From positions 2,666,001 through 2,730,000 of the forward strand of contig NC_009675.1 of the NCBI RefSeq assembly GCF_000017505.1: 64,000 bases of DNA. The letters are read 5' to 3'. How positions within the stretch are numbered: position 1 is the stretch's first letter; each line of letters opens with the position of its first letter. Positions 1 through 28,106 of this stretch are shown here, piece by piece. A program made the position numbers and the translations under genes. The stretch is from Anaeromyxobacter sp. Fw109-5. Lineage in GTDB: Bacteria; Myxococcota; Myxococcia; Myxococcales; Anaeromyxobacteraceae. The notes beneath the pieces were generated by a model. The model had not been told where the DNA came from. It searched no databases and saw nothing but the letters and a program-made list of their open reading frames with translations.

Positions 1-3000
1 GGTCGCCTCGAGCGTGTACCGTGCGCCCGCGAGCGCGTCCGCCGGGACGTCGAAGACCAGCGTCGCGCCACCCTCCGCGAGGGTCACGCCGCCATCCGCC
101 CTCGGCTTGTCCAGCAGCTGCACGGACACGCGCTCGAGGCCGACCGCGTCGCTCGCGACGGCCGTCGCCGTCACACGCGTCCCTGGCGACACCGTGATGG
201 AGGTAGTGCCGGTGCCTGCGGGATCACCCGGGTCGACCTCGAGGGCCGAGATGGTGGGCGGGGCGGTGTCGTCCGAGCTGGCGAAGGACGTCGTGCCCTC
301 CCCTGAACGTCCGTCGAGATCGTTGGCGACCGCCTTCACCTCGACGGTCTTCCCGCCAATCCCCATCGGCACGAACACGCTGCCGAGATACGGCGGGAGA
401 GGGAGCAGCTGCTGCAGGGTCCATTCGGCCTGGTCGGTCGGCTTCGCGTAGATCCGGACCTCGCGGATGCCGAACCCTGACGTGACCGTCACCTCGACCG
501 GAACGAACGTCCCCTCGAACCGCGTCACGGGGCCGAGCACGGCCACCGTCACGGCCGGGCCTCCCGGCGTCAGGTCGTCGCGCACCGTGACGGTGCGGGT
601 CGACGCGGGGCCGCGCCTGCCCTGTTCGTCGATCGCGACCGCCTGGAGCGTGAACGTCGTGTCGGACCCGACGGCAGGAGCCGTCAGCTCCGCCGCGATC
701 GCCGGCGCGTCCGCGACCACCTGCGTCGCGCTCTCGATCAACGTGTACTCCACCCTCGCCACGCGACCCGGCTCGGCCGGGATGGCGGCGATGGAGAGCG
801 GCGTCCCCTCCAGCACCGTGTCGGCGCTGCGGAGCTCCGCGAGGGCGGGGCCCTCCGTCGAGGAGACGAGCGCGACGCTCGCCTGCGCCGTGGCGACGTG
901 CCCGGCGAGGTCGCGGACGCGGAGGACGACCTCGGCGCTCGTCCCAGCCGCAGGCAGGTCCGCGTAGGACGGCAGGCGCGACTCGAGCGTCTCGACGATC
1001 CGGCCATCGACCAGCAGCTCGGCGGTGTAGGCGTCACGCGGATCCGGATCGACGACGGACGCGGACAGCGCCACCCGCCCGCCCGCCGGGGCGGACGCCG
1101 GAGCGGAGAGGCTGACGGACGGCGCAGCCGTCCCGAACGCGAGCCGCAGGTGCGCGTAGCCGTCGTCCTGCGAGACGAGCACGTCCGAGGCCCCAGCCAC
1201 GGGAGCGCCGGACAGCGCGGGGAAGAAGCCAGTGACGCCCGGCACCTCGCCCGCCCCGGCGCGCACGACCGAAAGGCCGTCCGTACGCGCGGACATCAGC
1301 CATCCGCCGCGCGCGACGGCGCGCGCAGGATCCGCGCCGAACGTCGAGCCGCCGTCGATCCGGAAGTCGTCGAACGTCGCGTACGCGGTCTGGTTGGCCG
1401 TGTACGAGCTCGTCGCGAGGCCGACGTACAGCGGGTCCCCCAGCGCGATGGTCTGCGTCGTGCCCTGCTGCGTCCAGGTGACGCCGTCGTTCGACCAGTA
1501 GCCGGCCAGCGAGTTGCCCGAGCGGGTGACGCGCAGCCACTTCGCGCCGCCCATCCCCACGCTGTTGCTGCTGCCGGTGCTCTGGTTCAGCCCCGTCCGG
1601 TACAGCAGCTCGGTCGTGCCCGTCGGACGGACGAGCATCGAGAGGTGCGGGCTTCCAGCCCCGAGGTCCTTGCGGACCATGAGGCCCGCCTTCGTGGAGG
1701 CGTGGACGCTCGTCAGCGAATCGACGCGCACGTCGACCGTGAAGTCGCCGCGGACCCTCTGCCACAGGTACGCGAGCTTGTCGGACGTGTTGTAGATGTC
1801 ACCGCCGTTCGCCTCCAGTCGCACCGCAGGGCTCGTCAGCGTCGGAGCCGGGGCGACGTCGCCGCCGACGTCGGTCTTCGTCCACGTCGAGGCGAGATCG
1901 AGCGGCGCATCGAGCGGATCGCTCCGGCCGCCGCTACCAGCCCCGTTGAACCGGAACGAGCGGAACACCCCAGTGGTCGGCGTCCCCGCGACGTAGGAGG
2001 CGACTGCGAGCCCCACCTGAACCGGTCCGGTCATGGGGACGACCTGATCCGAGCCGACCTGGGTCCAGCTCACGCCGTCCGCGGAGTGGAAGCCGCGGAA
2101 GACGTTCCCGAACCGCGTGATGCGGAGCCAGCGCGGCGGGCGCCCCGAGACGTTGGAGTACTGCTTGGCGGCCCCGGCGGACGGTCTCCACCCCCAGTGC
2201 GCATTTCCCTGCGCCTCGACGAGCATGGCGGCGTTGGCGCTGCCAGCCGTGAGGTCCTGCCGGACCATCAGGCCTGCCTTCGCATACTGGCTCGTGTATC
2301 CAAGCGACTCCACCTCCACGTCCATCGTGAAGTCACCCGTCACGCCGCCCTGGTGGACGAACGTGAACTCGTCGCTGGTCCCCGCGATACCCGCCGCGCC
2401 AGCGCCCTGAACCGCGATCGCGACGGGCACCGCGTACGGCCCCGGGAGCGACGTCTGGCCGATGTCGGTCTTGGTCCACCTGCGCGCGACATCGACGCCG
2501 CGCTCGAAATCATCGCTGCCGCTCACGAGCACGCCGACGGCGTCCGCGACGAGAGCGCCCGCGACGTCGACGGCGAAGCACTGGATGGAGGGACCGACGG
2601 TGCAGACCCGACCTCCGCCCGCGGCGGCGACGGACGTCGCATCGGCGGCAGCCACCCGCCCGATCGTCAGCGGCGCATACGCGGCGGCGACGTCCACGCT
2701 CAGGAGCTCTCCAGCGGCGAGGACGAACAGCCGATCCCCATCGGCCGCGATCGACGTGATGGGGCCGAGCGGGAGCGATGCGAGCACCCGCGCCTCGCCG
2801 TCGAGGAGCAGCACGCCCTCGTCGGACGCGACGGCGACGCCGCCGCGGAACCCGGCCAGCGCCACGACCTCACGGCGAAGCTCGAGCGAGGCATGCACGA
2901 CCGCCGGCTCAGCGAGGTCGCGCACCTCCAAGCGCCCGCGCCCGTCGTGCCGAAGCGCGACCGCGACGCCATCCTGCGCGAAGGCGAGCGCGACGGGCGT

Positions 3001-6000
3001 GTCGCCCAGCAGCGCGCTCGCGAGCACGCGATCGTCGTCGCGCGCGCGCACCTGCAGCACCCCATTGCCGTTCCAGTCCCGCGCGGCGAGCAGCAGCGTG
3101 TCGCCCTGCACCGCCAGCGCGGCGAGCTCGGGGAAGCCGGCTGGCAGATCGCGCACGATCTTCGGGGGGCCCGCCGCGAACCGGGTGAGGGTGCCGTCCA
3201 GCGAGGCGAGCGGATCCACGTAGCCCGGTACGCTCACCGTGACCTGGACCGGCGCGCCGTCCGGACCCTCGGGGAGCTCGAACGCCGCCGGGGAAGCGAG
3301 CTTCGGCTGCGTCCCCACGAGCGAGCCGCCGACGTAGACCGAGGCGGCGCCCGAGGAGACGGGGGCCGTCGCCGCGGCGAGCACGGTCGAGCCGCCAAGG
3401 AACTCGGGACCTGCCGGGTACGCGGCCACGCCGCCGTCGGGGACGGCGAGGAGCCGCCCCCCGATGGTCAACGCCTTCACGGCCGGCTTGCTCTCGACGC
3501 CGTTCCCGTCGACGGCCACGGCGCGCAGGATGGAGACGTTGCCCGCCGCGCCGGCCGGGACCGTGAACCGGGTGGTCCACGGCGCGCTGCCGAGCACGAC
3601 CTCGTCGCCGTCGAGCGCGATGCGCACGCTGGCGATCCCGGCGGGAGAGGCCGCGGAGACGGCGACGTCGATGGAGGCGCCCTCGACGAAGGTCGAGGAC
3701 GTCGGCTGGGTGATGCTCACGATCGGCTCGACCAGCGTCGGCTCCGCCGTCACCTCGACGCTCGCGCTGGCGGCGTTGCCCCGAGGATCGGCCGCGCGCG
3801 CCTCGAGCGTGAACGACGTCGCGGCGGACACGAGCGGCGCCGTCCACGACACCGTCCAAGGCGCGGCCGTCACGATCTTCTTGATGGTCGTGCCGTCGCC
3901 CTTCGGGAGCGTGAACTCCACCGACGCGACACCGTTCAGATCGCTCGCGCTCGCCGCGACCGACACCGTAGACCCCGCGGGCACACGACTCCCCTCGGCG
4001 GGGGCGACGATGCTGACGGTGGGCGCGGTGGCGTCGCGGCGGACGGTGACCGCGAGCGGCGCCGCCTGCCCCATGGCGCTCTTCGAGTCCAGCGCGAAGG
4101 CCGTGAACGTGTGCTGCACCTCCGCGACGTCGCCCGTGAGCGCCGCGGCGCGGAGCGGCGGGAGCCCGGACGCGTCCGGCACCGTGAACGAGACGTCGTA
4201 CTGGCTCGCGCCGTAGTTGACGCGCTTCAGCGGCGCGCCGTTCAGCCGCAGGTCCATCGACGCGACGCCGTTGTCGTCGTGACCGGTGACGGTCACCTTG
4301 AGCGGGGTCCCCTCCTCGACCACGCTGGTGCCGCTGACGAGCTGGATCGCGCAGGTGGGCGGCATGTTGTCGACGAGGTTCACGAGCACGATCTGCTCGC
4401 TCGCGTTCACGCCGTCGGACATGCGCGCCACGACCGTGGAGGTCCGCCCGAGGTCCGTGTTCGGCCAGGAGAAGCGGAACTTCCCGTCCGCGCCCCGGGG
4501 CTGGGAGACGCCGTCCACGAGCAGGGACGGGGTCGGGGTCTGCCCGCTGTCGGGATCGCTGCCGGACACCACGAACGTCCAGGTCACGCCCACGGCCAGG
4601 TCCACCGGCTGCGGGCTCGCGGGGAGCGACGTCGTGCTGCCGTCCAGCGCGACCGACACGGACGGCGCCACGACGTCGACGGCGCGGAACTGGTGACGGG
4701 ACTGAGGCGAGTAGACGATGGGGTTCTGCACCAGGTCGCGAACGCCCTCGACCCGCATCTCGTACAGCGAGGCGGAGCGGAGCGGCGCGCCGGGCGTGAA
4801 CTCGACGCCGATCGCGGCGCCGCTCGTGTCGGCGAGCACAGCGCGGGCGCCCTCGACCGGCGACCAGACGCCGCCGAGGTAGACGTACACGAGCACGCTG
4901 CCGGCGCTGGCGGGATCGATCGGCTCGCTGAAGGTGACCTTCAGCTTCGAGTCGATGGGGATCCGGGGCTCCGTCGGCGCCCACGCGACCGGGATGGGCG
5001 GCTCGTGATCGCGCCGGAGGATGGCGTTCGCCAGCACGAGCGGACTGGTCCCGGCCTGCTCCAGCTTCAGCGTGAGCGCCTTCGCGGCGCCGCCCGGGAC
5101 GGCGAGCGCGAACGAGGAGGTGATCGCGCCCGACGTGAAGCTGCTGGTCGCCACCACGGCCTCGTCCAGGTACGCGGTGAGACCGCGCGTGAAGCCGGTC
5201 CCCGTGACCGTGACGGTGCCTCCGACGAGGCCGACCTCGGCGGGGGTGATCGCGCTCACCGCGAGCGGCGAGACGTAGACGAAGCCGCCGTCGAGGGCGG
5301 CGGAGCCGCCGCTGCCGGCGATGACCTCGACGCGCGCGGGTCCGGCGGCGACGCCCGGGGGTGTCCTCACGAAGAGAGCACCGTCGGTCGGCGCTCCCTC
5401 CGGGACGACGGTCACGCCGCCGATCCGGACCTGCGTCACGGACGCGAGTCCGGCACCCGCGATCTCGACGAGCGTCCCGCCTGCGACCGGGCCGGAGCTG
5501 GGCGTCACGGACGCGATCGTCACGCCGCTGGGCGCGCCTCCACCGCGGACGTGGAACGTCCAGGGTCCGGAGACGTCACCGCCGAGGTAGGGCGTGGAGC
5601 CGAGCGTCACGCGCTCCGCGTAGACCCTCCCCTCCACGAGCGGCTGCGCCGGCGTGAACGTCACGGTGGTGCCCGCGATGCCCTGCGTGCCCGCGAGCGG
5701 GCTCCCGTTGTCCAGCAGCTCGAGCGACGTGCCGGCGACGACGGAGGGCGGGAGGCGGCCCGCGATCGTCACGTTCGCGGAGGCCCCCGCGGCGATGGCC
5801 TCGCCCGGCGCCGGAGAGAGCCCCGAGGCGACGGGGTACGGCAACGCGTAGGTGCGCGTCCACGACCAGCCGCCGAGGATCGCGACGCCGGCTCCGATGG
5901 CCGCGTGCGAGCCGGAGCCGACGGGAGTGAACGTACGCTCGGTGAAGCTGGTCGCGTCGACCCAGTGAGCCCGCTCGCGGCTGGTGGCGAGGAGCCAGGG

Positions 6001-18000: not shown

Positions 18001-21000
18001 GACGACGGGATCGGCGACGTCGAACACCGCGAGCAGAGGACCGGAGAGCCGCCGGTCGATGCGGGAGGCGCGGGTCGTGACCAGGGCGAGACTGCCGTGG
18101 AACGTCGCGCTCGCTCCCGGGCCGTCGAGATCCAGCGCGCTGAACCCTTCGACTCCGCCCTCCAGGGCCCGCCCGATCCGGAGCCGGGACCACGGCTGGA
18201 ACGGCGGCGCCTCGGGCTCGCGCACGGCGGCAAGGAGTAGGCCGTCGGGCCGAACGGCCATCGGCCCCACGTCCCTGTCAGCCGAGGGCGACCACCGCTG
18301 ATCCTTCGGCCGCATGCCGAGCTCGACGCTGACGAGCTGCGACAGCTTCGTGTTGTTGGACCGGTCGTAGGCCTGGGCCTGGAACGTCTGGAGCTCGCCG
18401 GCGATGCGGGCGGGGAGCTCGCCCTGAGCGGCGCCCGCGACCCAAGGGTACTGGTGCAGCGGGCGGTTCGCGGGACCGATCGTCGTGGCCGCGGTGGAGC
18501 CGATGGTCACCCCGTCCACGAGGAAGTCGACCTTCGCAAGAGGGGGCGCGTTGTCCTCCGCCGCCGCCGCGAGCGTGAGCTGCTCGCCCAGCGTCACGAC
18601 GTCCCGATCGACGGGATCCACGAGCTCGACGGCGGGATCGACCGTGTCCTTCACCGTACCGATGACGACCGGCTCGGACACGGTCTCCTGATCGGCCGTG
18701 TCCGTGGCGATCGCGGTGAGCGTGAACATCCGGTTCGTCGCGCCCACCGGCGCGTAGAAGCTCCCGCGGAACACGTTCGGCGCGCCCGGGACGCCCGCCG
18801 AGGTGAACGCCGCATCCACCTTCTTGCCGTCCACGAGGAACGCGACCGATTTGACCCCGCCGTCCTCGTCGACCGCCTCGGCCTCGATGCGGACGACCTG
18901 GCCGTCGAACACGAGCGTGTCCTGGAGCGGCTTGACGATGTGGATGCTCGGCGGCTGATCGGGCACCACCGTTCGCACGGCCGGGGCGGACGCGGTCCGC
19001 TGACCAGCGACGTCCACGGCGTCGGCCCGGAGGACGACCTCCTTCCCGACCCACTCCTTGGGCGGCGTCCACATCACGCGGTACGGCAGCATGAGCCGCT
19101 GGTCGATCTGGGCGGGATCGTCGGCGTCGATCCCTGCGAAGAACTCGACGCGTGCGACCGCGATGTCGTCCCATCCCTCCGCGTCGATCCGCGAGGGGAT
19201 CCCAGCCACGAGCTTCGCGGGCGGGAAGAGCGTCACGCCCGGCGCCTCGTCGGGGATGGCGGTCACCGAGACGCTCGCGTGCCCCGTGAGGCCGGAGAGA
19301 TCGGTCGCGCGAGCGGTGATGGCGATGACCTTCCCCGCGTCGCCGCGCGCGACGGGGTACGTGAACCGGAACGGCGGCGACGGCATCGTCGCGACGGTCG
19401 TCCCGTTGACCTCGAACACCACCGACGCGACGCCTACGTCGTCGTCGGCCCTCGCCTCGATCTCGAGCTTCAGCCCCTCCGGGATCTGCGACGCGTTCCT
19501 GGGCGACAGGAAGCTGACGGTCGGCGGGGTGGTGTCCGCCTTCGCCAGCACGGTCACGGACGGCGCCGTCGAGACGTGACCGGCCGCGTCCCGGGCCTTC
19601 GCGTTCAGCACGAGCGTGCGCCCCGCGGAGCCGTGAGGCAGAGGAACCCGGAACCCGTACGGCCGGGTCGTGGAGAAGAAGCGCATCGTCCCGTTGAGGC
19701 CCCCGTCGACGGTGGCCTCCACCGAGGTCACCGCTGCGTCGTCCTGGGCCGCGACGACGAACGCGAAGTCGCGTCCCTCGGTGACCGTCTCGCCGTTGCG
19801 GGGCTCCGCGATCGCGACGGTGGGCGCCGCGTCGGACACGATGGGGAGCTGGACCACGTTGCTCCACACCTCGTGTCCGTACGTGTCCCTCGCCCGCGCG
19901 CGCAGGTGGAGCATCCTGCCCGGCTCTGCCGCGGGGACGGCGACGAGGAAGTTGAACGGCGGAGCGCGCATGGTGACGTCCGCCGGCACCCCGTCGACCC
20001 ACAGCTCGACGCTCGAGATGCCGACGTCGTCCTCGGCCGCGATCGCCACCGGCAGCTGGGTCAGCTCGACCGCCCGCCCGTACTCCGACGGGGAGATGAT
20101 CGCGACCCCCGGCTCGCGGTCGCGCACGATGTCCACGTAGTGGACGACGCGCGGCGTCGTGCGGTTGCCGGAGACGTCCCGGGCCTCCGCGGCCACGAAG
20201 TACGGCATCGTGGCGACGCCGTCGGGCAGCGTGGGCAGGCTCAGGTCGTACTGCACGACGGGCGCGTAGATGCCGCCGGGCGAGCCCGGCAGCATGTTCT
20301 TGGGCGGGAACCCGCCTGCGACGTACGCGAGCGCCAGCGCCGCCTCGCTCTGGCCGCCGTAGAGCTCGACCCGGTCCACGAGCACGTTGTCGGAGGCCTG
20401 GACCTGCACGCGCACCGGCGTACCCTCGACGACGTCGCGACCGAGCACCGGCCTGAGGAACTCGACGACCGGGGGGGCCTCGTCCGCCACGACCTCGACG
20501 TCACGACCCACGACGGTCTGGTTGCCCTCGAGGTCGGTGGCGACGGCTCGGACCGAGAGGCGCGACGAGCCGTGGGTGGGGTCGGGATCGAGCGCGACGA
20601 AGCCGGGAGGGAGGCTGACCTCGGCCCGGAACTGCCGGAGCCGGGTCACGTCGTCGAAGGGGGCGGTGACGGTGGGCGGGCTCGTGGCCGCCGCGGCTTC
20701 CACCGCGATCCGGATCGCGGCGTCCGCCGCCACCGGCAGGCCCGTCTCCGTATCGATCGAGATGACCGGGACGTCCTGCGAGTCCTTCGCGAGGATCCCC
20801 AGGGCGCGCTGGCCGTTCACGTACAGCTCCACCTGCGACACGCCGGTGTCATCGCCCGCCACCGCGAGGAAGGTGAGCTGGATGCTCCCCTCCGCGAGCG
20901 TGGCGCCGTTCGCCGGCGCGGCCACCGCGAGCGCGGGCGCCTGCGGGTGACGCGTCTCCAGGATGAGCCGCGAGCTCACCTCGTGGCCGCGGGTGTCCCA

Positions 21001-24000
21001 CGCGGTCACCACGAACACGGTCGGGGTTCCGTCGGCGCGCACCGGGGGCACGACGCTCGCGCTGAGGGTCGCCGAAGCACGGGGCGCCGCGGAGTAGTCC
21101 GCGTCGAGCACCGTCGCGCCGTCGTACACCACGCGCACCCGCGTGGCGCCGACGTCGTCGCCGACCCTGAACGAGACCGCGGCGGGCGTCGCCTGCAGGA
21201 CGCGGGCGATGCCCGACTCCAGCTCCTTCGCGCCGATCCGCTCGACGACGGCCGGAGAGCCGCTCGCGATGCCTGTGAACGCGATCGATGGCGGCGCGTC
21301 GGGGACCACCGTCACGTAGAGGGGGTCCGTCAGCGACGCGTTTCCGGCCCGATCCTGCGCGAGCGCGCTCAGGGGGACCGGCGCAGGGCCGGAGAGCGGC
21401 AGCGTCAGCGTGAGCCGCGACTGAGAGCTGCCGAGCGGCGGGACGACCTCCGCCTTTCGAGCGCCGTCGGCGAGGAGCTCGAGCCGCTCGACGACGACGT
21501 CGTCGCGATGCGTGACGATCACGTCGAAGGGCGCGCCGTCCACCGCGGGACCGGGCCGGCCGAGCGCGAGCGAGACCTCCGGCGGCTTGCGGTCCGGCAC
21601 GGAGGGGTGGAGCGTCGTGTACATCCCGACGGCGCCGGCCGTGTCGACCGCGATCGCCGTGAGGCGCGCCTCCGAGAAGCCCAGCCCCCCCGGCACCCGG
21701 ACGCGCTGGGTCTCGGTTACGGCGCCAGGGCGAACGCTTGGCTCGAACGCCTGGACGCCGATCGCCTGACCGAACGCGCGCGCACGGAGCTGAGGCGCGA
21801 TCGTCCCCTTCGTGTCCAGCAGCGCGAGCGCCGCGGTCTCGATCCCGGAGCCCGAGGGCAGCGTGAGGAGGACCTGCTCGACCTGGATCACCGCGTCCGG
21901 GAAGGACAGGTCCGCGGAGTGCGCCGGCGCAGCGAGCGCGACGGTGCCACGCCCGCCGGGGAACCTCCGCAGGAAGTCCAGCAGCCGGGCATCGCTCTCG
22001 AAGCCACTGCGTACGCGGTAGGCATACTGAACGCCTACCGTGCCCTCCACCCCGGGGGCGGCGAACGTGAGCTTTCCTGCGTCGCCGCTCTCGGGGGCTC
22101 GCCTGAGCGCCGCCGGGGCGCGCACGGTCAGCGCCCCTTCACCCGATGCCACCTCGAATCCTTGGTCGCCCCAGAAGGTCAGCACCGCGCGTGCGCCCGC
22201 GACCGCGCCCGGCGCCGCGATGGTCACGTCGGCCGCGCTCGCGGAGGTCACGTCCGAGGTCGAGAGCACGACGAAGCCGGCCCCGACACCGGCGTCGTCC
22301 GACAGCGTCAGCGGGACGATCTCCGGCTTCTCCTCGACGAGCTGGCTGCCCGTGATCGGGGCGATGAACGAGACGGTGGGTGGCGAGTCCTTCACGAGCT
22401 CTCGCGTGAGGCTCGTCTCGCCCACCCGCCCCTTGGCGTCCACGGCGCGGGCGGTGATCGTGATCGACCGCACGTCGTCCAGCGCGACGACCGCGGGCGC
22501 CGCCCACGTGACCGTTTCCCGCACGCTCGCGGCGGGATCGAACGGGGAGAGCGCGAGCGGCTCGCCGTCGACGTCGAGCGAGAGCGCGCTCACGACGCCG
22601 TCGTCGTACGCGCCGACGTGGATCTGGATGGTCGAGCCGCCGACGATCCGCGCCGCGTCCGGCACGCCCTGCAGGGTGATCGAGACTCGCGGAGGCGTCT
22701 GATCCTCGAACGCCGTGATCTCGACCTCGACCTCGCTCGTCGAGGTCCCGTTCCCGGCGGGATCGTAGGCTCGCGCGGAGAGCCGGTATCGCCCGGGCTC
22801 GACGCCGGCGAAGCGGACCGTGCCCTGGAACGATCCGACGTACCGGCGACTCACGAGGATCTCGCCGGGGCCGAGCGGATTCTCGGTCCGGATCTCCTCG
22901 AACCGCTCGGACTTCGGCGCCAGGAAGTCCTTGCCGTCGCCGGTCTTCAGCTCCCGCAGCTCGGTTCCCTGGAGCTGCACCGCGACGCGGCTCACGCGGA
23001 CGTCGTCCATGACCTCGACGCGCATGCCGAGCGAGCCGCCCTCGCGCACCTTGATCGGTCCCGTCGCGGGCGGACGCGGAGGGAGCGGCGCCGAGAGCGA
23101 CGCCGAGGGGGCCTCCGTATCGCGCCCGACGCTGAGCCGGACCGTCCCGGCGCCGTCCTGCAGCGCGGTGTCACGCGCGATGACCCCGACCTCGGGCTCC
23201 TCACCCTTGGAGACGATGGGGGCCCAGACGGTGAGCACCTTCTCGCCGCTCGCGTCGATGGGACTCCCCTTCGTCGGGAGCGTTCCCCAGAGCTTCCCGC
23301 CCGACACACCGGAGACCCCGAGGACCCCGTCGTCGTCCGCGAGGGTGTACGCGATGCGCACGTCCTCGCCTTCCTTGAACGGCGCGCCCGGCGGCGGGAC
23401 GAGGATCGAGACGGTAGGGGGAAGGTCCTTCACCGCCCGGAGCGTGAGATCGCGGCTCGCCGAGAGGTTCGCGGAGTCCTTCGCCACGGCCGTGAGCTCG
23501 AGCTCCTGACCCTGGGCCTCCGCGGGGATGGCGACCTTCCATTCGTACACGTGGTAAAGCTCGTCGGTGTAGCTCCGCTGTAGGACCGGCGAGACGCCGG
23601 CTCCCTGCAGCGTGACGCTCTGGAGCGCGACGTTGTCCGACGCCACCCCGACGACGATCACGTCCCGCCCCGCGAACACCCGCTCTCCCTCGGCGGGCGA
23701 GCGGAACGCGACGAGCGGTGGCTTCGTGTCCGGGACGACGGTCACCGCCAGCGTCGCCTCCGCCGACTGCGGCTCGGGGGCGGTGGGAGACGGTGACTCG
23801 ACGGCCACCGCTCGCAAGGTCAGGGCGGGGCGCGCGGCGCCCGTGTTCGAGAGGGTGAACCGGTACGGCGGGACGAGCTTCGTGCCGACGGCGACGCCGT
23901 CGGCGTAGAGCTCGACGCGTCCCACCGCCACGTCGTCCTCGGCCTCGACGAGGACCTCGAGCTTCGTGTGGGCGGTGACCTGCGCGCCGGGGACCGGGCT

Positions 24001-26928
24001 CACGATGCGGACGGTCGGAGGCGCGTCGGCGCGCGCGTGGACCAGCACCTCCGGCGCCCGGCCCACGTTGCCGCTCGCGTCCGTCGCGCGGGCCGAGATC
24101 CGGTGATCGGCGCCGGTCGCGAGCTGCGCCGCGCTCACCACGGCGTGGCTGATGAACGAGCCGCGCACGCCGGCGTGCTCGTCAGGCGAGTCATCCGTGT
24201 AGACGACGTTCCCATCGAAGAGGACCTCGACCTTCGCGACGCGGACGTCGTCGAGGCCTGCCACGCTGACGAGCAGGTCCTGGGTCTGGGTCACGTCGGC
24301 GAGCTCGCGCGGCGTGACGATCGCGAGCGTGGGCGGGTTGCGGTCGGTGGTGCCGTAGACCGTGAGCTCGTCACGGCTCTCGTTGCCGGCCGCGTCCCGG
24401 GCGACGGCGGCGACGAGGAGCGTCTGATCCTGCTCGGCGACGGGGATCTTGTACGTGACGTCGAACGCTCCCGCCGACGAGGCCCCGACGATCTGGCCGT
24501 TGACGGACCAGGTGACCATGCAGCTCGTGCCGCCGTCGTCGAGCACGCGCGCGGTGAGCAGCGCCAGCGAGCCCATCGGCAGGGACGCGTTCGCCTGCGG
24601 GGTCAGGATCTTGATCTGCGGAGGCTGGTCCTTCCGGACGGTCGCGTCGAAGGCGACCCGTCGCTCGTTCCCTCCGACGTCGATCGCCTGCACCTCGAGC
24701 CGGAACATCCTGCCGACCTGATCCGCCGGCGGCGCCCACGTGAAGCTGAACGGCAGGTCGCCTACCAGCGTCCCGGCGACCGTCCCGCCCACGAGGCGCT
24801 TCCTCGCGACGGCGGTGCCGTCGACGAGGAGCGCGGCGTCCACGCCGATCCCCATCGCGTCGTCGCCGATGTGGCCGGCGACCTCGAACGGAACGCCGGC
24901 GGTCGCGTCCACGATGGAGCCCACCGGCTTCTGCAGCGTGACGAGCGGCGGAGCGTCCGCCACGATGCGGACGAGGAGCGTTTCCGAGACGACGACGGCG
25001 CCCGCCCGGTCCACCGCCTCGGCCCGGAGGGACATCCCCGTGCCCGCCGCGTCCGGCTTCGGGATGTAGGTGATCTCCCAGACCGGCACGGCGACGCTCT
25101 CGGGCTTGAGACCCCGCGCCTGCTCCTCGTCCGTCTGCGGTTTCTGCCGCATCTCCAGGCGTGCGCTGGAGGAGGATCCGACCGGGACGTCGTCGACCGT
25201 GAAGCGAACCACCTGGTAGTCGTCCATGCTGCCAGAGAGGCCGTCACGGCTCGTGACCCGGAGCATGACCGGGAGGCCCTGGATCAGCATGGCGCCGGCG
25301 GAGGGCGCCTCCCACCTCGGCCCCTTCCCCGGGACCGGCGCGTCGGTGACCGGGACCGACACCTCGGGCGCCGTCGTGGAGGCGCCGGCGGTGTCGATCA
25401 CCTTCGCGGCGATCTTCATCACCGTTCCGCCGTACGGCGGCGCTCTGAGCTGCAGCACGTAGGGCGGCTCGGCGTCCTCGGCGGTGGGGACGCCGTTCAG
25501 CACGAAGACCACCTTCGCGATCCCGACGTCGTCCTTGGCCTCGGCCCGGACCTCGAGCGAGCCGCCGGCCTGAACCGAGGAAGGGACGCGGAGCTTGAGC
25601 TCCGGCGGCCCGTCGAGCGCGTCGACCCGGAGGCGAGCCTCGTAGCCCGCGTGGCGGGCGGTGACGATCGCGGACCCGGGCTTTCGGGAGGTGACCCGAC
25701 CGTCGGGGGAGACGATCAGCACGGAGGGATCGCTCGACGCATACGTGGTCCCGAGGGACCCCGGCGTCAGATCCACGCGGCGCCCCGTGCTGAGGACGCC
25801 CTCGAGCTTCAGCTGCGTGGAGCCGCCCACGCGAGGCACGGAGGCGCCCGCGGGTCCGAGCTCGACCGCGTCGAGCTGCGCGGTCGAGTCGACCACCACC
25901 TCCGCCTCGTGATCGGTGCCCGCGTACGAGACCCGGACGCGCGTGATCCCGTTGGCGCGAGCCATGACCTGACCGTCGCGCGTCACCGCTGCGATCGACT
26001 CGTCGAGGCTCGCGTACTCGACCCCCTTGCCCGCGCCGCTGAGGTCCACGTCACCGGCCGCGGCGAAGCGGGCGATCACCTTCAGCTGCTCGCGCTGGCC
26101 GAACCCTTCCGCGAGCAGCACCGGCGCGGGCATGACGGTGAGGCCGAGCAGGACGTCGAACCGCTCGGAGTCGGTGAACTCCACCGCGGAGGTATGGACG
26201 GCGCGCCCGAACGGATCTCGCAGCGCGACGTCCGCGATGACGACGCCGTCGAGCGGTGGGTCGAAGCGCGTCGGGAGCGCGAACGTGATCTTCCCGGGCG
26301 CGTCCGCTCGCGGGTACGCGAACACCTGCCGCTCGTGGACGAACATCGCGTCCGCCGCGACCTGGGCGAGGTTGCCGTTGACGGAGCGGAGCACCTGCGC
26401 CGAGACGCCGGTGACCGAGGCCTCGGCCTGCGCCACCTGACCCGAGTACGCCACCTCGACGAGCAGCGCGCCGGACGCGTCCCGTCGCACCTTGACCGGC
26501 TCCTGCCTCGCGAAGGCCGGCGCGCTCGCGCCCGCCACGATGCGCCCGTTGAAGGCCGCGCCGCGCGCGCCATCCGGCCCGATCGCCTGGGCCTGCACGT
26601 CGACGACGCCGTCCGCCGGAAATGCCGTCCCGAGCGGCACGTGGACGTGGAACGCGACGGCGCTCGCGTAGTCCCGATCGACGATCGCCTCGCGGAGGGA
26701 CGCGAACCCACCGGACGTCGGCGACGTTCCCTGCACCGTGACGTCCAGCTGCGCCGCCTGTCCGTCCACCTGGAACGCGAGATCGAGTCCCGTCGAACCG
26801 ACCTGGATGGGCGCGAGGGGGCGGACCGACACCACGGCGGGCGGTCCCGCCCAGGCGACCGCGGGCAGCAGCAGGCCGAGCGTGCATGCGGCGACAAAGG
26901 CCAAGGGTCTCGAGGCGCGACGCTTCAC
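1..26928 (-). CDS. Giant secreted multi-domain Ig/TIG/propeller protein (partial, C-terminus off the window)
   Basis: One reading frame runs from a GTG at 26928 to the left edge: 8,976 codons, no stop seen, end not reached. The frame was checked at many points and always gives protein-like sequence. The start has a GAGGGGG ribosome site 4-5 nt upstream and encodes a signal peptide (KRR n-region, hydrophobic core, AWA cleavage near residue 27). Domains in order: N-terminal region, two BIG2-type Ig domains (about 275-433), some 22 Ig-like repeats (about 433-2,860), about seven Big_5/TIG/TIG/LVIVD-propeller modules (about 2,880-7,410), four or so Ig domains, another propeller-like stretch, two DUF1349-like domains (about 8,139-8,528), then Ig. 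Cysteines are rare and no membrane segment was seen. A surface adhesin or extracellular matrix protein is inferred; the anchor is not visible. Cotranscription with the parvulin gene 20 nt upstream is likely. Confidence 0.9.
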   Translation of the reverse strand, partial: MKRRASRPLAFVAACTLGLLLPAVAWAGPPAVVSVRPLAPIQVGSTGLDLAFQVDGQAAQLDVTVQGTSPTSGGFASLREAIVDRDYASAVAFHVHVPLGTAFPADGVVDVQAQAIGPDGARGAAFNGRIVAGASAPAFARQEPVKVRRDASGALLVEVAYSGQVAQAEASVTGVSAQVLRSVNGNLAQVAADAMFVHERQVFAYPRADAPGKITFALPTRFDPPLDGVVIADVALRDPFGRAVHTSAVEFTDSERFDVLLGLTVMPAPVLLAEGFGQREQLKVIARFAAAGDVDLSGAGKGVEYASLDESIAAVTRDGQVMARANGITRVRVSYAGTDHEAEVVVDSTAQLDAVELGPAGASVPRVGGSTQLKLEGVLSTGRRVDLTPGSLGTTYASSDPSVLIVSPDGRVTSRKPGSAIVTARHAGYEARLRVDALDGPPELKLRVPSSVQAGGSLEVRAEAKDDVGIAKVVFVLNGVPTAEDAEPPYVLQLRAPPYGGTVMKIAAKVIDTAGASTTAPEVSVPVTDAPVPGKGPRWEAPSAGAMLIQGLPVMLRVTSRDGLSGSMDDYQVVRFTVDDVPVGSSSSARLEMRQKPQTDEEQARGLKPESVAVPVWEITYIPKPDAAGTGMSLRAEAVDRAGAVVVSETLLVRIVADAPPLVTLQKPVGSIVDATAGVPFEVAGHIGDDAMGIGVDAALLVDGTAVARKRLVGGTVAGTLVGDLPFSFTWAPPADQVGRMFRLEVQAIDVGGNERRVAFDATVRKDQPPQIKILTPQANASLPMGSLALLTARVLDDGGTSCMVTWSVNGQIVGASSAGAFDVTYKIPVAEQDQTLLVAAVARDAAGNESRDELTVYGTTDRNPPTLAIVTPRELADVTQTQDLLVSVAGLDDVRVAKVEVLFDGNVVYTDDSPDEHAGVRGSFISHAVVSAAQLATGADHRISARATDASGNVGRAPEVLVHARADAPPTVRIVSPVPGAQVTAHTKLEVLVEAEDDVAVGRVELYADGVAVGTKLVPPYRFTLSNTGAARPALTLRAVAVESPSPTAPEPQSAEATLAVTVVPDTKPPLVAFRSPAEGERVFAGRDVIVVGVASDNVALQSVTLQGAGVSPVLQRSYTDELYHVYEWKVAIPAEAQGQELELTAVAKDSANLSASRDLTLRAVKDLPPTVSILVPPPGAPFKEGEDVRIAYTLADDDGVLGVSGVSGGKLWGTLPTKGSPIDASGEKVLTVWAPIVSKGEEPEVGVIARDTALQDGAGTVRLSVGRDTEAPSASLSAPLPPRPPATGPIKVREGGSLGMRVEVMDDVRVSRVAVQLQGTELRELKTGDGKDFLAPKSERFEEIRTENPLGPGEILVSRRYVGSFQGTVRFAGVEPGRYRLSARAYDPAGNGTSTSEVEVEITAFEDQTPPRVSITLQGVPDAARIVGGSTIQIHVGAYDDGVVSALSLDVDGEPLALSPFDPAASVRETVTWAAPAVVALDDVRSITITARAVDAKGRVGETSLTRELVKDSPPTVSFIAPITGSQLVEEKPEIVPLTLSDDAGVGAGFVVLSTSDVTSASAADVTIAAPGAVAGARAVLTFWGDQGFEVASGEGALTVRAPAALRRAPESGDAGKLTFAAPGVEGTVGVQYAYRVRSGFESDARLLDFLRRFPGGRGTVALAAPAHSADLSFPDAVIQVEQVLLTLPSGSGIETAALALLDTKGTIAPQLRARAFGQAIGVQAFEPSVRPGAVTETQRVRVPGGLGFSEARLTAIAVDTAGAVGMYTTLHPSVPDRKPPEVSLALGRPGPAVDGAPFDVIVTHRDDVVVERLELLADGARKAEVVPPLGSSQSRLTLTLPLSGPAPVPLSALAQDRAGNASLTDPLYVTVVPDAPPSIAFTGIASGSPAVVERIGAKELESGIARVLQATPAAVSFRVGDDVGATRVRVVYDGATVLDADYSAAPRASATLSASVVPPVRADGTPTVFVVTAWDTRGHEVSSRLILETRHPQAPALAVAAPANGATLAEGSIQLTFLAVAGDDTGVSQVELYVNGQRALGILAKDSQDVPVISIDTETGLPVAADAAIRIAVEAAAATSPPTVTAPFDDVTRLRQFRAEVSLPPGFVALDPDPTHGSSRLSVRAVATDLEGNQTVVGRDVEVVADEAPPVVEFLRPVLGRDVVEGTPVRVQVQASDNVLVDRVELYGGQSEAALALAYVAGGFPPKNMLPGSPGGIYAPVVQYDLSLPTLPDGVATMPYFVAAEARDVSGNRTTPRVVHYVDIVRDREPGVAIISPSEYGRAVELTQLPVAIAAEDDVGISSVELWVDGVPADVTMRAPPFNFLVAVPAAEPGRMLHLRARARDTYGHEVWSNVVQLPIVSDAAPTVAIAEPRNGETVTEGRDFAFVVAAQDDAAVTSVEATVDGGLNGTMRFFSTTRPYGFRVPLPHGSAGRTLVLNAKARDAAGHVSTAPSVTVLAKADTTPPTVSFLSPRNASQIPEGLKLEIEARADDDVGVASVVFEVNGTTVATMPSPPFRFTYPVARGDAGKVIAITARATDLSGLTGHASVSVTAIPDEAPGVTLFPPAKLVAGIPSRIDAEGWDDIAVARVEFFAGIDADDPAQIDQRLMLPYRVMWTPPKEWVGKEVVLRADAVDVAGQRTASAPAVRTVVPDQPPSIHIVKPLQDTLVFDGQVVRIEAEAVDEDGGVKSVAFLVDGKKVDAAFTSAGVPGAPNVFRGSFYAPVGATNRMFTLTAIATDTADQETVSEPVVIGTVKDTVDPAVELVDPVDRDVVTLGEQLTLAAAAEDNAPPLAKVDFLVDGVTIGSTAATTIGPANRPLHQYPWVAGAAQGELPARIAGELQTFQAQAYDRSNNTKLSQLVSVELGMRPKDQRWSPSADRDVGPMAVRPDGLLLAAVREPEAPPFQPWSRLRIGRALEGGVEGFSALDLDGPGASATFHGSLALVTTRASRIDRRLSGPLLAVFDVADPVVPKRRGAIELVGPEVGGVAARDRLAFVANGEPGVAVVDLSDPTQPVRLTNIPVVGVARDVAVAGDRLLVAADTGGLRILDLRDPELKELGFVAVPSGAVTVAAQGDRAFVGCSGGGSQLAVIDISRPAQPVVRSLLSHAPARRDLRASGMVDVAVAGRTVVTSTALVDQDAHPVKGLMTVSALSDAMTDAKPVVRANLSAAADVGIAAGGAVALHPKSGAGPASVAGYVLPRLLVTGMTPPDGALDVALSTPDLAIEVELSAPVTLASAQANVVLREQDPAIGPVVEATIEVGDRRIYVRPVEELRPARAYFLTVGTGLETDAQLPLERRVVSSFRTRAVDAPLPIVSDVVPSAGPADGGTTVSISALNVQEGARVFFSDREATEVQVLADGRVSAKTPMGVLGPALVSIVNPDGLQGSLLGGFTYLDLLQANFCSPATGKLAGGDLVVLSGAGFERGAAVTLAGVPAVDVRVLTPGHIQFYTPPGSFGPADVVVENSDGRRAVAPGAFFYSELQVTSIVGRHDPKLDGTEERPAFRLPRMPPGRVALRDGVAWVLSDALIDESARNVVELREKSLWGALSFVDVRDPRNASVMGVLSVPPPLVPSDLVVRGDLAYVVANAKVLPNMDMAGEGAPAVLVVDGSDKAGPEILATVPFEGEATSVAVADDLLLVASGSKGVAIFSIADPVHPVLLGYQSDYLVNGAHQALPIRRVATLGRYALLSTTLKAGGTGLVVDLAQPGLRSIASLPASFADLSGAAGRGLAANGWLRSLSLATPAEPKYVADLTPVIATGAGGFYFASAGAQFGVGAWSGGGGFLQVTALADPGNHRSIDAVDLFPAMDLAGAALERDVAVVSVAKTINVSPTNVALSAGVAANDGLVVVPLQFPLVVASDPPDGASGVLVSAAVRVETNRPIFDADIATVRLLRMDGSANGAQVDATVTTAGDVITLTPSQPLATSARYRLVVDGIHEARDGGPGSPMPAAYTAEFSTARSTSAVPLSVSSVSPRQGRAGALVTIEGTGFGTAPGNVAVRFSGQPAAIVQLDPTGTRMVVEAPANPAGAVTLQLETVEGTSLDRVGAFVYRDELRVLSVTPDRGPASGTTRVRIQGTGFSPVGAVQVWFQGVLADEVRVLGVDTIEATTPNGVVGQADVTVRNPDGETDTLEGAFTFDRPTMSAVAYDGRIYDAIVIDNVAYLAAGASGLQVIDLSGTYTRDAKDGTPLEGLYIPPDLRDELVDVDGDRVDDRVIGRLALGGEAVSISYPPEGGDRIYVGLRTWRAVDNTHWIAEGAFAEVNVSNPSAPVQIGGGSTQGSVFGLDARGDRLLAAAGTDGLRTWDISSPPQHAPFPVGTHEAPPAAQVLAVEEGLAALGVGLRGETSPSLATDQIAFGSLELIDVSGAARPLSSVGSLDVQEVKLRGGFAFVAAGSRGLVILDVRDPANPVERAALSVGGFAWDLALSGDLAYVAAGDAGVAVVDVSDVLHPALKYYVSGAKGGQARSVTMAYGQLLTIRDRGSLGWSVDFGYPVDFAVESISVTPGQIVPVDLPSISVILSTTVDPATAPAAFSLTADGVEVPGVLEAGSPAELVSTLVFRPAAELPLGAELRLRIDTTLTSHQGQALAAPFEVRFVAASAPGPWPRIAQVVPRVGPAEGGEVIEVLGEGFELLASVNVGGKPARVLAASATRLTIETPPGAPGLADVEVVNPSGVRDRRPGGYFYSAPLYADVAIPRFLNPRGGSVVRVTGQGFLPSWSGPLGSTRVLIRGLPALSVNVTSTVELTAVAPPGSFGPAEVTVVSADGLQRSVSPSDVGYGLPYSGEEKAVAVRPRALAQDLQTPLFVYAAPGAHFSGNSFPQPFIGANLGAATIPESFRVVAYDVTLAGRPRASLAQIVDAVDASADVWGAFNLGILPGMPPMSMFGDDMPDPDAPAPVGAVQLPDDLEIEPDALDVAVGGPNLYIANGTSGLTILDASRHADPTASTQEDLPVMSHEPRQEGVAAVRVRSTPTGALVVKASGFAAECRAPGQKADAVSTDGRVELFDARDPRDPVLLATFGPERPYSSLISGGRLYVTSGSFGGIEHCPPEEPTMWEPPPVNSVSKVLPAGPPSNRLTIYDGYGPGSSVVGTFPVGAPVTDVAVVQEVAILSTAGEGVLFVDVSNPAAPTLARAIPFDQTLSNTPGTPLRLRVAGDLLFVACEAGGPVLIDVSDPRNPRLVSGGNTETALDALPVSDRLLLAGGTAVTELSLPFTYVTGTTPERGALVPPDLAQLEVRFNRALAEPSVDETSVRLVSAAGATIPLQLSVREDHQTLTYAIVATPTSPLAPATSYELQVDASVTDQRGGGLLIPFRFPFSTGAAGSRAPRIADVTPRTARAQPLQGTATPSTLTVTGTGLTGTSRVLVGGVEAVAFDVVSDEQLEVTAPLLPAGPVDLVVENAGGPSDRLPMAVLVLDDLVGSRLTVAPTHGPIEGGTRIVVSAPTGKPIAPGTQVVIRHASGVVRSGVDVDVVDLSRLRFTAPAVDEAGLVAVELVRPDGQVEVAGTYSYDLPVGTQLDLPGFPPRLASETKLIGETLYVGVRNPSYYGLELFDVTIEEHPIWLGSLRTETPVRGLEVSGGLALLAAEGMGLVLADVSDANHPFRVAQLMIGDRATGVRLEGATAFVSTTDPGAGPGRIQKVDVASPTLPLLESVGLESDALALDLGPDRFYVLTSDVSGASGNGLWLSIYRRDGVLLGKVPVDESLTSWESLVSSRLTVRFGRAYVTVGRKLFVFDVTQEAAPVALQGTDLGAPASGLTWSGGTLYVATEGTSTLVAVPAAKLLAVEVTPSNGALAAPDALVRVTFTMPVAPTSVDSTTFSVMADRQDGLGPQPVDGSRDVEFAVRGSSILFRPTQPLPPGATVYVDVVGVKGFDTLPLAVPVHTTFEVTSDGLQPAITGIAPANGYVDAWTPDVVISGSGFRLGDVVKVGGQEATVVAVSATGNWIKIDVPPAPLLAPGLAAIEVTDPSGLTALRIGAFLYRDHVRVTSVTPDRAPQAGGVKVTLRGYGFRPGMAVNFGGTDSFDVVVTALDTALAVAPAHAAGTVDVQARIARPGLDGSTVPGDWEVFTLSNAFLYGTGAVAHLDTRPVAHVIVDGGVAYAALGATVDVPAASGAVLAEGRTTSEAGLLVADVADPNRVTVVKQLTLPSVGGARRLAKVGGVVYLAAGPAGVQRIDVSLPAEAHLLPDPLGTSGAAVDVAAAGDLLFVADGQGIAVFRMGEADRPLLVARRTITGGASALAVHGKLLLATSASATAPTLHVFDARTGDLAELAERPITAPARHITAEGKRAFLSLGRAKQVAVIDLTNPAAPVDGGTLVLSDPLGSDWVSAEETTIAGGIAWVAAGGGKVQRFAIPAGLPPPLAPLERAVVTGDARSLAFLGKSLLVGTLVLDQQGTAIELPLQDPTLAGLPLAGALATVPLPHVELRGTRPQDDGVAPISAPIDVLLTELVDPATADAVTLERVGLEGGPVAVTRHVSLDAGGANLSLTPSSPLALDAEYLLEVGAGLADLQGATLGAEAHVRFRTAKTSSAVVPMVAGASPPSGLREGGDTIEVHGTGFLPGCSVELGGVQATVLELASDGTWVRVQVPPGAAGAAGVEVRNVSGLGDLRLGAYRYLVPPRITGYTPAFAPFDGRVAVRITGEGLYGGTVVTFGGVDARSVTLEADGALVAETPDGITGPVDLAVATRTPAGALVDTSEGGFTFTLAPLGTAIAERPTGLATIGTALVVASDHHLTAYDLSSDSPFQQARVPTGAQVRAFAMSGRKAYVAVDGGSYGPSEIVEYAVDGCGSGPLSACALVETGRVSLNPYGESVNAIAARDGAAFVALGGGDELSLLGMVDGQLRVVADTYVPGATIRALQVVQGNLAVLLEDATTARVELRSLADGQLSLLGASERWARNYSTASPAAISSEGSRIAVAVDRAVHVVDAVDPTAPFEVGSWSVPANASGNQKPVAAALAGPWLLATSRERAHWVDATSFTERTFTPVGSGSHAAIGAGVAILGGWSWTRTYALPYPVASGLSPAPGEAIAAGASANVTIAGRLPPSVVAGTSLELLDNGSPLAGTQGIAGTTVTFTPAQPLVEGRVYAERVTLGSTPYLGGDVSGPWTFHVRGGGAPSGVTIASVTPSSGPVAGGTLVEIAGAGLASVTQVRIGGVTVVPEGAPTDGALFVRTPPGVAAGPARVEVIAGSGGSAALDGGFVYVSPLAVSAITPAEVGLVGGTVTVTGTGFTRGLTAYLDEAVVATSSFTSGAITSSFALAVPGGAAKALTLKLEQAGTSPLVLANAILRRDHEPPIPVAWAPTEPRIPIDSKLKVTFSEPIDPASAGSVLVYVYLGGVWSPVEGARAVLADTSGAAIGVEFTPGAPLRSASLYEMRVEGVRDLVQNPIVYSPQSRHQFRAVDVVAPSVSVALDGSTTSLPASPQPVDLAVGVTWTFVVSGSDPDSGQTPTPSLLVDGVSQPRGADGKFRFSWPNTDLGRTSTVVARMSDGVNASEQIVLVNLVDNMPPTCAIQLVSGTSVVEEGTPLKVTVTGHDDNGVASMDLRLNGAPLKRVNYGASQYDVSFTVPDASGLPPLRAAALTGDVAEVQHTFTAFALDSKSAMGQAAPLAVTVRRDATAPTVSIVAPAEGSRVPAGSTVSVAASASDLNGVASVEFTLPKGDGTTIKKIVTAAPWTVSWTAPLVSAATSFTLEARAADPRGNAASASVEVTAEPTLVEPIVSITQPTSSTFVEGASIDVAVSAASPAGIASVRIALDGDEVVLGSAPWTTRFTVPAGAAGNVSILRAVAVDGNGVESKPAVKALTIGGRLLAVPDGGVAAYPAGPEFLGGSTVLAAATAPVSSGAASVYVGGSLVGTQPKLASPAAFELPEGPDGAPVQVTVSVPGYVDPLASLDGTLTRFAAGPPKIVRDLPAGFPELAALAVQGDTLLLAARDWNGNGVLQVRARDDDRVLASALLGDTPVALAFAQDGVAVALRHDGRGRLEVRDLAEPAVVHASLELRREVVALAGFRGGVAVASDEGVLLLDGEARVLASLPLGPITSIAADGDRLFVLAAGELLSVDVAAAYAPLTIGRVAAADATSVAAAGGGRVCTVGPSIQCFAVDVAGALVADAVGVLVSGSDDFERGVDVARRWTKTDIGQTSLPGPYAVPVAIAVQGAGAAGIAGTSDEFTFVHQGGVTGDFTMDVEVESLGYTSQYAKAGLMVRQDLTAGSANAAMLVEAQGNAHWGWRPSAGAAKQYSNVSGRPPRWLRITRFGNVFRGFHSADGVSWTQVGSDQVVPMTGPVQVGLAVASYVAGTPTTGVFRSFRFNGAGSGGRSDPLDAPLDLASTWTKTDVGGDVAPAPTLTSPAVRLEANGGDIYNTSDKLAYLWQRVRGDFTVDVRVDSLTSVHASTKAGLMVRKDLGAGSPHLSMLVRPTGTTELLYRTGLNQSTGSSNSVGMGGAKWLRVTRSGNSLAGYWSNDGVTWTQQGTTQTIALGDPLYVGLATSSYTANQTAYATFDDFRIDGGSTFGADPARAVARGGWLMSARTDGLSVVRAGAGEVPGVTGFFPALSGAPVAGASDVLVSQDDGYAHLRLAFGTAAPSVSLSAPASAPAGGRVALSASVVDPDPRDAYTAELLVDGRIVETLESRLPSYADLPAAGTSAEVVLRVRDLAGHVATAQASVALVSSTEGPALAELRSADTVLEGTPLSIAAIPAEPGRVARVEYTLIESATQVVADAPAIAAELTAPAVGSDTTFTLQAVAIDEQGRRGPASTRTVTVRDDLTPGGPAVTVAVLGPVTRFEGTFVPVEVTVTSGFGIREVRIYAKPTDQAEWTLQQLLPLPPYLGSVFVPMGIGGKTVEVKAVANDLDGRSGEGTTSFASSDDTAPPTISALEVDPGDPAGTGTTSITVSPGTRVTATAVASDAVGLERVSVQLLDKPRADGGVTLAEGGATLVFDVPADALAGARYTLEAT
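1345..2510 (-). other. Duplicated DUF1349-like (concanavalin-type fold) domains in the giant protein
   Basis: Two adjacent units of about 195 residues lie at 2,510-1,935 and 1,925-1,345. Both contain GDFT-x-D-V-x-V, then KAGLMVR-D, then a W-L-R-x-T-R-x-G-N stretch, then S-x-D-G-V-x-WT. This is the pattern of DUF1349-type beta-sandwich modules, often carbohydrate-linked. The family name is inferred from these motifs. The two copies are similar enough to indicate a local duplication. Confidence 0.65.
4690..18290 (-). other. Super-module array: Big_5-like + TIG + TIG + LVIVD-type propeller, about seven copies
   Basis: Paired TIG/IPT domains, recognisable by I-x-x-V-x-P-x-x-G-x-x-x-G-G-T starts and FxxG cores, begin near 16,975, 15,015, 13,085, 10,905, 9,215, 7,290 and 5,545. 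Each pair is preceded by a Big_5-like domain (P-x-D-G-A-x-x-V-x-x-x-x-x-I-x-V pattern). Each is followed by a stretch of propeller blades of the type AYVAAGxxGVxVVDVSDPxxP, typical of LVIVD repeats. Spacing between successive pairs is 1.7-2.2 kb, about 650 residues. A first propeller at 18,290-17,360 precedes the first pair. Confidence 0.75.
18350..25630 (-). other. Tandem Ig-like repeat array inside the giant protein (about 22 domains)
   Basis: Reading the giant frame, each unit of about 100 residues opens with a PPxVxxxxP-type linker (for example KPPLVAFRSP, TPPTVSFLSP, QPPSIHIVKP). It continues with a conserved D-D-x-x-V-x-x-V-x-x-x-x-D-G core and ends with an A-x-D-x-x-G segment. This is the pattern of bacterial Ig-like domains found in adhesins. 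About 22 units were counted between residues 433 and 2,860. One unit near 22,160-21,610 is longer and less regular. The units are clearly diverged from each other. Confidence 0.8.
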
Positions 26929-26948: not shown

Positions 26949-27803
26949 CTAGCGCGGTCCCGCCAGCGACGGGAACTCGACGTCCGCGTCCCTGCGCAGA
27001 CGAGAGAGAAGCTCATCGAAGGCCTTGCGCTTCAGCTGCGGCACGAGGCGGTTCGAGACCTCCCCGCGCGCCTCCTCGAACGACGGGACCCGGCCCGGCC
27101 GCCGCTCTATGAGCTCCAGCACGGCGAAGCCGTCGGTCAGCTCGATGACCGGCGAGCGCGCCCCCACCGCGGGGAGCTCGAACGCAGCGGACTCCAAGCG
27201 CGCGTCCTTGCCGTCCCCTCGTCCGATCAGCCCGAGATCTCCCCCCCGCGCGCGCTCGGGACCGTCGCCGGACACCGCGACCGCCTCGAAGCGCTCACCG
27301 GCGCGCAGCCGCCCCGCGAACCGTTCCGCGCGCTCCCTCGCGCGCTCGCGATCGGAGCGCGACGCCCCCGGGTCGACCTTCGCGAGCACGCGCCGGACGC
27401 GGAGGCGCTCGGGCTGCGCGAGCTCGGCCCCGTGCGAGTCGTACCAGGCGCGGAGCTCGGCGTCGCTCGCGGATCCCCTCGCCTTCTCTTCCGCGGCGAG
27501 CAGCGCCTGGATCGCGAGCCGCTCCTCGAGCTCCTCCAACTCGCGACGGATCTCCGGGTCTTCGTGCAGCTTGCGCCGGCGCGCCTCTCGCGCGAGGAGG
27601 CGCTTGTCCACGATCGCCCCGACCATGTCGCGCCTGCCGGCCTCGGTCTCGAAGCGAGCCCGCAGCAGCGGCGGGAGCCGGCTCGCCTCCCGGTGCAGGT
27701 CCTCCGCCGTGACCACTCCGCCGTCGAAGCGTCCGACGACGTCGGCCGGATCGGAGCTGCTACATCCGAGGACGAGCGCTGCGAGCAGCACTGCTCGCTT
27801 CAC
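26949..27803 (-). CDS. Parvulin-type (PpiC/SurA-like) peptidyl-prolyl isomerase lipoprotein
   Basis: The 284-residue product starts VKRAVLLAALVLGC, a lipoprotein signal with lipobox LVLG|C, so it should be lipidated and exported. A helical N-terminal chaperone segment (about 25-130) is followed by a PpiC rotamase domain (about 135-245; ARGGDLGLIGRG, then ELTDGFAVLELIERRPG). The GTG at 27803 gives a normal lipoprotein signal but has a weak ribosome site. A GTG at 27848 has a GGAG 5-6 nt upstream and would add 15 residues, so the start is not certain. The stop is 20 nt before the giant gene, making an operon likely. A role in folding or secreting the giant protein is inferred. Confidence 0.85.
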   Translation of the reverse strand: MKRAVLLAALVLGCSSSDPADVVGRFDGGVVTAEDLHREASRLPPLLRARFETEAGRRDMVGAIVDKRLLAREARRRKLHEDPEIRRELEELEERLAIQALLAAEEKARGSASDAELRAWYDSHGAELAQPERLRVRRVLAKVDPGASRSDRERARERAERFAGRLRAGERFEAVAVSGDGPERARGGDLGLIGRGDGKDARLESAAFELPAVGARSPVIELTDGFAVLELIERRPGRVPSFEEARGEVSNRLVPQLKRKAFDELLSRLRRDADVEFPSLAGPR

Positions 27804-27907: not shown

Positions 27908-28106
27908 CGGGTGATTTCTCCATCAGTGATGAACGCGGTTGAGCCGCCGCGCGGGCGTCGGGTCGCCGACGATTCACGCCGGGTCGTCTCCACCCCTTGA
28001 TCGATCGGGTCCAGTGTGCTCTCTTCACGCTTCGTCATTTTTCCCCGCGGGCCCTCCAGGCGACCCCGAGGGATTTCCGCGCCCTGGTCTACGGAGTCAG
28101 CACACG

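Follow-up and report, generated by a model that had tools for sequence, protein, structure and literature searches.

The window analysed here, a 64,000-nucleotide stretch of the soil myxobacterium Anaeromyxobacter sp. Fw109-5 (positions 2666001-2730000 of the complete 5,277,990-bp genome), begins inside a minus-strand gene for a very large protein, hereafter the giant. The gene shares an operon with that of a second giant, an apparent polymorphic toxin of the Rhs type (hereafter the Rhs protein), and this shared operon is the main point beyond a preliminary description made from the window's sequence. Comparison across the order demonstrates the genetic coupling of the two genes and the constraint on the giant. 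On balance we favour the view that the giant is the non-toxic partner in a polymorphic toxin system of the Rhs type that myxobacteria build from two giants, and that it is probably part of the weaponry with which bacteria attack one another. The domain types, secretion signals and analogy with known systems suggest display or delivery of the Rhs toxin as the giant's role.

Linkage of the giant to an Rhs gene

Profile searches of 145 genomes of the order detected the giant in 37 and the Rhs protein in 34, all 34 of which carry the giant (Fisher p = 5e-30; the test treats related genomes as independent, so that the p-value overstates the association, while the nested pattern itself is unaffected). 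Four genomes hold two giants and two Rhs proteins each. Judged from their positions, the two genes are linked on the same strand in 27 pairs, with the Rhs gene downstream of the giant in 21 and upstream in 6; the remaining pairs lie on separate contigs of draft genomes, and linkage is seen wherever both genes share one contig. The six reverse-order loci were considered as giants lacking an Rhs gene, a reading rejected when the search for the Rhs protein placed it upstream. The linkage survives reversed gene order. Further evidence for coupling is that the distances among giants follow those among Rhs proteins closely (r = 0.96, Mantel p = 1e-4).

The Rhs protein carries RHS_repeat, DUF6531 and Rhs_assc_core matches above the curated cut-offs. 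Among 12 such proteins the core is 33-84% identical, and the last 200 residues are unrelated in 65 of the 66 pairs; because the tips are unrelated while the cores match, we read the protein as a polymorphic toxin. Some tips give weak toxin-like matches (Ntox50, YwqJ-deaminase). Downstream of the Rhs gene of the window's genome lie two orphan cassettes, with an Rhs core that is 91% identical, new tips, and a small open reading frame (ORF) after each. The ORFs following the three tips encode 152, 186 and 170 residues, and the first two, when scanned, had no Pfam match.

The usual operon order is parvulin lipoprotein A, giant, parvulin lipoprotein B and an Rhs protein of 4,000-6,100 residues. An island of ~68 kb (genome 2,625,420-2,695,210) in the window's genome holds all of these genes and ends in the orphan Rhs cassettes. 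Three complete relatives of the same genus have an empty site in its place, with the flanking genes 0.7-1.3 kb apart. The features beside the giant are as follows, in the direction of transcription.

Window 29191..29214: right edge of the island
Window 26949..27803, minus strand: parvulin (PpiC-type) lipoprotein A, 284 residues, lipobox LVLGC, with a Pfam rotamase domain
Genome 2,653,970-2,654,836, minus strand, outside the window: parvulin lipoprotein B
Genome 2,635,644-2,653,973, minus strand, outside the window: Rhs protein, 6,109 residues, CARDB and immunoglobulin-like (Ig) domains followed by the Rhs core
Genome 2,635,184-2,635,642, minus strand, outside the window: candidate immunity ORF
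Genome 2,632,307-2,634,604, minus strand, outside the window: orphan Rhs cassette
Genome 2,629,042-2,631,630, minus strand, outside the window: orphan Rhs cassette
Genome ~2,625,420-2,627,140, outside the window: left edge of the island

The Rotamase domains of parvulins A and B both score above the Pfam cut-off. The stop codon of parvulin A lies 20 bp before the start codon of the giant, an upstream position kept in most relatives, and the genes for parvulin B and the Rhs protein overlap by 4 bp in the window's genome and in several relatives. Exceptions to the order are two relatives without parvulin A beside the giant and one with both parvulins upstream. At four loci parvulin B and the Rhs gene are separated by an additional gene of 1,384-1,419 codons (L105:1744-5895; similar in L106, L107 and L121/L122); the one example that was scanned contains RHS repeats.

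Domain architecture and proposed role

Domains of the giant were assigned with Pfam, repeat profiles, AlphaFold models and Foldseek. The part encoded in the window (all minus strand) is arranged as follows, from the N-terminus.

26848..26928: signal peptide MKRRASRPLAFVAACTLGLLLPAVAWA, residues ~1-27 (by eye)
18481..26847: N-terminal Ig array, residues 28-2816, two Big_2 and ~21 Big_7 domains (Pfam, repeat profiles; AlphaFold for residues 26-600)
4741..18171: seven modules of LVIVD-type beta-propeller, Big_5, TIG and TIG, residues ~2920-7396 (Pfam, repeat profiles, AlphaFold, Foldseek; propellers of modules 5 and 7 assigned partly from position)
3289..4359: second Ig block, four Big_7 domains, residues 7524-7880 (Pfam, repeat profiles)
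1357..2343: two DUF1349 / concanavalin-like domains, residues ~8196-8524 (Pfam)
76..1122: third Ig block, four Big_7 domains, residues 8603-8951 (repeat profiles)

The giant further has an LVIVD-rich region, and the protein closes with a C-terminal extension (residues ~10,380-12,684; L006:6874-13800) of acidic double-disulfide repeats (NF033662), galactose-binding-like domains and an Arg-rich tail. Among six giants compared, the extension is unique to that of the window; it holds most of this protein's 150 cysteines, as against 21-41 in the other giants. The giant contains 909 prolines. TIG domains number 14 in all six giants counted and Big_5 domains 8 or 9, and to judge from these sequences the domain order is fixed.

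The AlphaFold model of the first module (predicted local distance difference test, pLDDT, 88.3; predicted TM-score, pTM, 0.79) consists of a propeller followed by Ig-like domains, and Foldseek matched it to the plexin and MET ectodomains, in which a propeller is likewise followed by IPT domains, with low whole-chain TM-scores. The N-terminal 575 residues were modelled as Ig-like beads of uncertain relative placement (pTM 0.45), and the Foldseek matches of this Ig string include the S-layer proteins SbsC, EA1 and Sap. For the giant, neither a C-terminal membrane anchor nor membership of a transmembrane or beta-barrel family was recognised. Two known classes were considered and rejected: an RTX / type I secreted adhesin, as the giant has no RTX family match and carries an N-terminal Sec-type signal instead, and a CdiA-type exoprotein, as no part of it gives a Pfam match to the TPS domain or to filamentous-haemagglutinin repeats and no CdiB transporter gene was seen in the operon.

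In the mechanism that we propose, both giants would cross the inner membrane by Sec, and the parvulin lipoproteins would serve as dedicated foldases for the proline-rich beta-sandwich domains. The folded giant, placed at the cell surface or within the matrix, would form a very long scaffold whose propeller/TIG modules could bind target cells and which would display or release the Rhs toxin. Neighbours without the matching immunity protein would then be intoxicated, and kin thereby spared. More tentatively, a single extracellular polypeptide of ~10,000 residues with fixed modules may have the specific task of displaying and delivering an Rhs toxin that is a protein of its own. Stick and warhead of this split weapon would then be encoded by two genes; we hold this narrower version as a possibility short of an even chance.

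Several observations weigh against the toxin-system reading. Three genomes have a giant with no Rhs protein detected; in two of them the giant lies at or near a contig end, and the third (G104) is unexplained. The correlation between the distances of giants and of Rhs proteins may partly be species history. Several Rhs tips have no family match, and the toxicity of the tips and the roles of the candidate immunity ORFs are deduced from their pattern. Moreover, no parvulins were found nearby in the four reverse-order regions read (of six), and the operon holds no gene recognised as an outer-membrane exporter.

The strongest competitor, which we consider rather unlikely, makes the giant an adhesin or a surface protein for binding prey that functions on its own, independently of the Rhs toxin with which it shares the island. 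Its Ig, TIG and propeller domains are of kinds typically met in adhesive ectodomains; the first module resembles the plexin/MET ectodomains and, more weakly, GhpA of Aureispira, and myxobacteria are predators. Against this reading stand the presence of the giant in 34 of 34 genomes with the Rhs protein, the matching copy numbers and the linkage kept after the order is reversed; adhesin sticks, moreover, often differ in repeat number, whereas the TIG number is constant in the six giants compared. Less probable still, the giant might stay in the periplasm or at the outer membrane, meet no target and serve there as the secretion, assembly or shell factor of the Rhs protein. An assembly machine would suit the fixed architecture and the adjoining parvulin lipoproteins, as well as the lipobox-like signal with which, by eye, most relatives' Rhs proteins start, but the giant has no recognised transmembrane or beta-barrel family, and its domains are of the kinds found in extracellular proteins that bind ligands. 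The S-layer matches of the Ig string and the DUF1349 / concanavalin-like domains could also point to a structural matrix or S-layer-like coat protein, or to a carbohydrate-binding scaffold. We regard this as very improbable in view of the tight link to the toxin, the low whole-chain TM-scores and the patchiness of the island, which is missing in the eight other genomes of the genus and in 15 of the family.

Extent and constraint of the giant gene

The giant gene occupies window 1..26928 on the minus strand, starts with GTG and, after 8,976 stop-free codons, runs out of the window on the left. When the frame was extended with the neighbouring DNA, its stop was found at genome 2,654,874, 11,127 bp left of the window, giving 38,055 bp including the stop, zero internal stops and a protein of 12,684 residues, well above the minimum of 8,970 in the preliminary description. 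That description had proposed to extend the frame to the C-terminus and an anchoring domain; the former was thus reached, and of the latter nothing was recognised, as stated above. From base composition alone, the probability of meeting no stop over 12,684 codons is ~1e-90. Guanine-cytosine (GC) content at codon positions 1/2/3 is 71/55/92%. The remaining five frames of the same DNA contain 17 to 312 stops each, with 2,256 codons as the longest antisense open stretch, so that the plus-strand ORFs are shadows, as had been stated before.

The signals given earlier as evidence for a gene are all present: AGGGGG, resembling a ribosome-binding site, before the start codon, the Sec-type signal peptide, which aligns with the hydrophobic N-termini of relatives, and the closely adjoining lipoprotein gene, to which we add that its product is a parvulin prolyl isomerase. 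For the Arg-rich C-terminal tail, which none of the relatives compared shares, a check for a frameshift was made, and the other two frames near the end were not clearly better.

Orthologues were sought with the first 600 residues; none was found in the genus (8 other genomes) or in 15 genomes of the family, and the same search returned homologues with a single frame from other families of the order. A scan of genome contigs with the giant as a single protein gave no match, and an alignment-based scan yielded 16 named relatives. In the profile search of the order, 33 of 41 giant matches lie in open frames of 9,682-12,712 residues, and several of the shorter ones extend to a contig end. Most of the homologues form one frame each, 9.7-11.5 thousand residues long. 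Residues 1 to ~10,190 of the giant align collinearly with relatives from other myxobacterial families, at 40-46% identity. Between the two closest giants, the ratio of nonsynonymous to synonymous substitution rates (dN/dS) is 0.09-0.21 in each block of 1,000 codons, which points to purifying selection in every block.

The frame is one real, single gene under constraint. The earlier claim that a single gene encodes a secreted protein of very large size is borne out by the homologous single frames, the collinearity and the selection, and the frameshift or stop that might have split it did not appear, the conserved part being collinear and read through in relatives from several families. A chance open frame, shadow frame or assembly artefact, for which one could cite the long shadow ORFs that high GC yields, is already refuted by the homologous single frames in other families, by a dN/dS well below 1 per block and by the stops in the other frames.

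As a separate observation, the giant of G111 (a complete genome; L121/L122) shifts frame near locus base 18,900, with both halves otherwise open.

Known systems and further genes of the island

CdiA/CdiB systems combine a long surface stick, a polymorphic C-terminal toxin, orphan modules and immunity genes. In the system described here, by contrast, long protein and toxin are two genes, and neither filamentous-haemagglutinin repeats nor a CdiB-type transporter was seen. GhpA of Aureispira (PDB 9flw, 9fly) is, like the giant, a very large extracellular beta-sandwich protein of a predatory bacterium, and gave weak Foldseek matches; it differs in that there is no sign here of the system to which GhpA belongs, and in the low whole-chain TM-scores.

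According to the accessible text of PMC10433427, Myxococcus secretes Rhs proteins of ~4,000 residues that kill non-kin without a type VI secretion system, their delivery being unexplained. The M. xanthus proteins Rhs4 and Rhs5 of that paper resemble the Rhs proteins here in being secreted, of that size and with polymorphic tips, in their association with mobile DNA and in delivery by a route other than type VI; compared by description, they differ in that the accessible text reports them as single toxins on Mx-alpha prophages and names no giant partner or parvulins. Bacterial teneurin-like proteins, as the accessible text of PMC13018210 presents them, are lipoprotein-type Rhs/YD toxins of Myxococcaceae with variable tips and immunity genes, for which the authors see no obvious delivery machinery; a term search of that paper returned neither parvulins nor giant partners. 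A teneurin TTR-like domain (TTR_TEN1-4) was matched in the A2 region of three of seven Rhs proteins here (best E 1.4e-6). The four Rhs proteins scanned for an NHL propeller had no match and, in distinction to the teneurin-like proteins, carry the Rhs-type DUF6531 instead. The Rhs protein was accordingly rejected as teneurin-like, as it lacks the combination of FN-plug, NHL propeller and YD-shell; the TTR match may reflect a distant kinship.

Other giant surface proteins (PMC11573180, PMC12863079) are alike in extreme length, secretion and repeated beta-domains, but in the accessible text of those papers they are not tied to Rhs toxin and parvulin genes. Bacterial genes for up to 85,800 residues are cited in the accessible part of PMC12057145. 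Searches of the non-subscription literature turned up no account of an Rhs protein paired with a prolyl isomerase or a giant partner. PMC13018210 and PMC10433427 leave open by what means the large secreted Rhs and teneurin-like toxins are displayed and delivered. A second giant gene, present in every genome of the order that has the Rhs protein and linked to it wherever both share a contig, offers a concrete candidate for what is missing; if correct, the split design would explain the arrival of some large secreted Rhs toxins at neighbouring cells in the absence of a type VI system. It also lends a conserved bacterial giant gene a role that can be tested.

Two further sets of genes belong to the island or its cassettes.

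Window 27939..29069, plus strand: third parvulin, SurA-like N-terminus and rotamase domain, divergent from parvulin A and inside the island
L007:1231-1659, L007:4493-4924 and L120:17408-18340, minus strand, outside the window: three Y1 (IS200-like) transposase-like ORFs

The closest relative of the third parvulin in the same genome, at 5,249,588, is 54% identical, and nothing above 57% was found in relatives of the same genus; because these are so distant, the gene probably came with the island. The Y1 ORFs are 98-99% identical and interleaved with the orphan cassettes; two of the three are cut where the Rhs homology starts, and they are possibly involved in cassette turnover.
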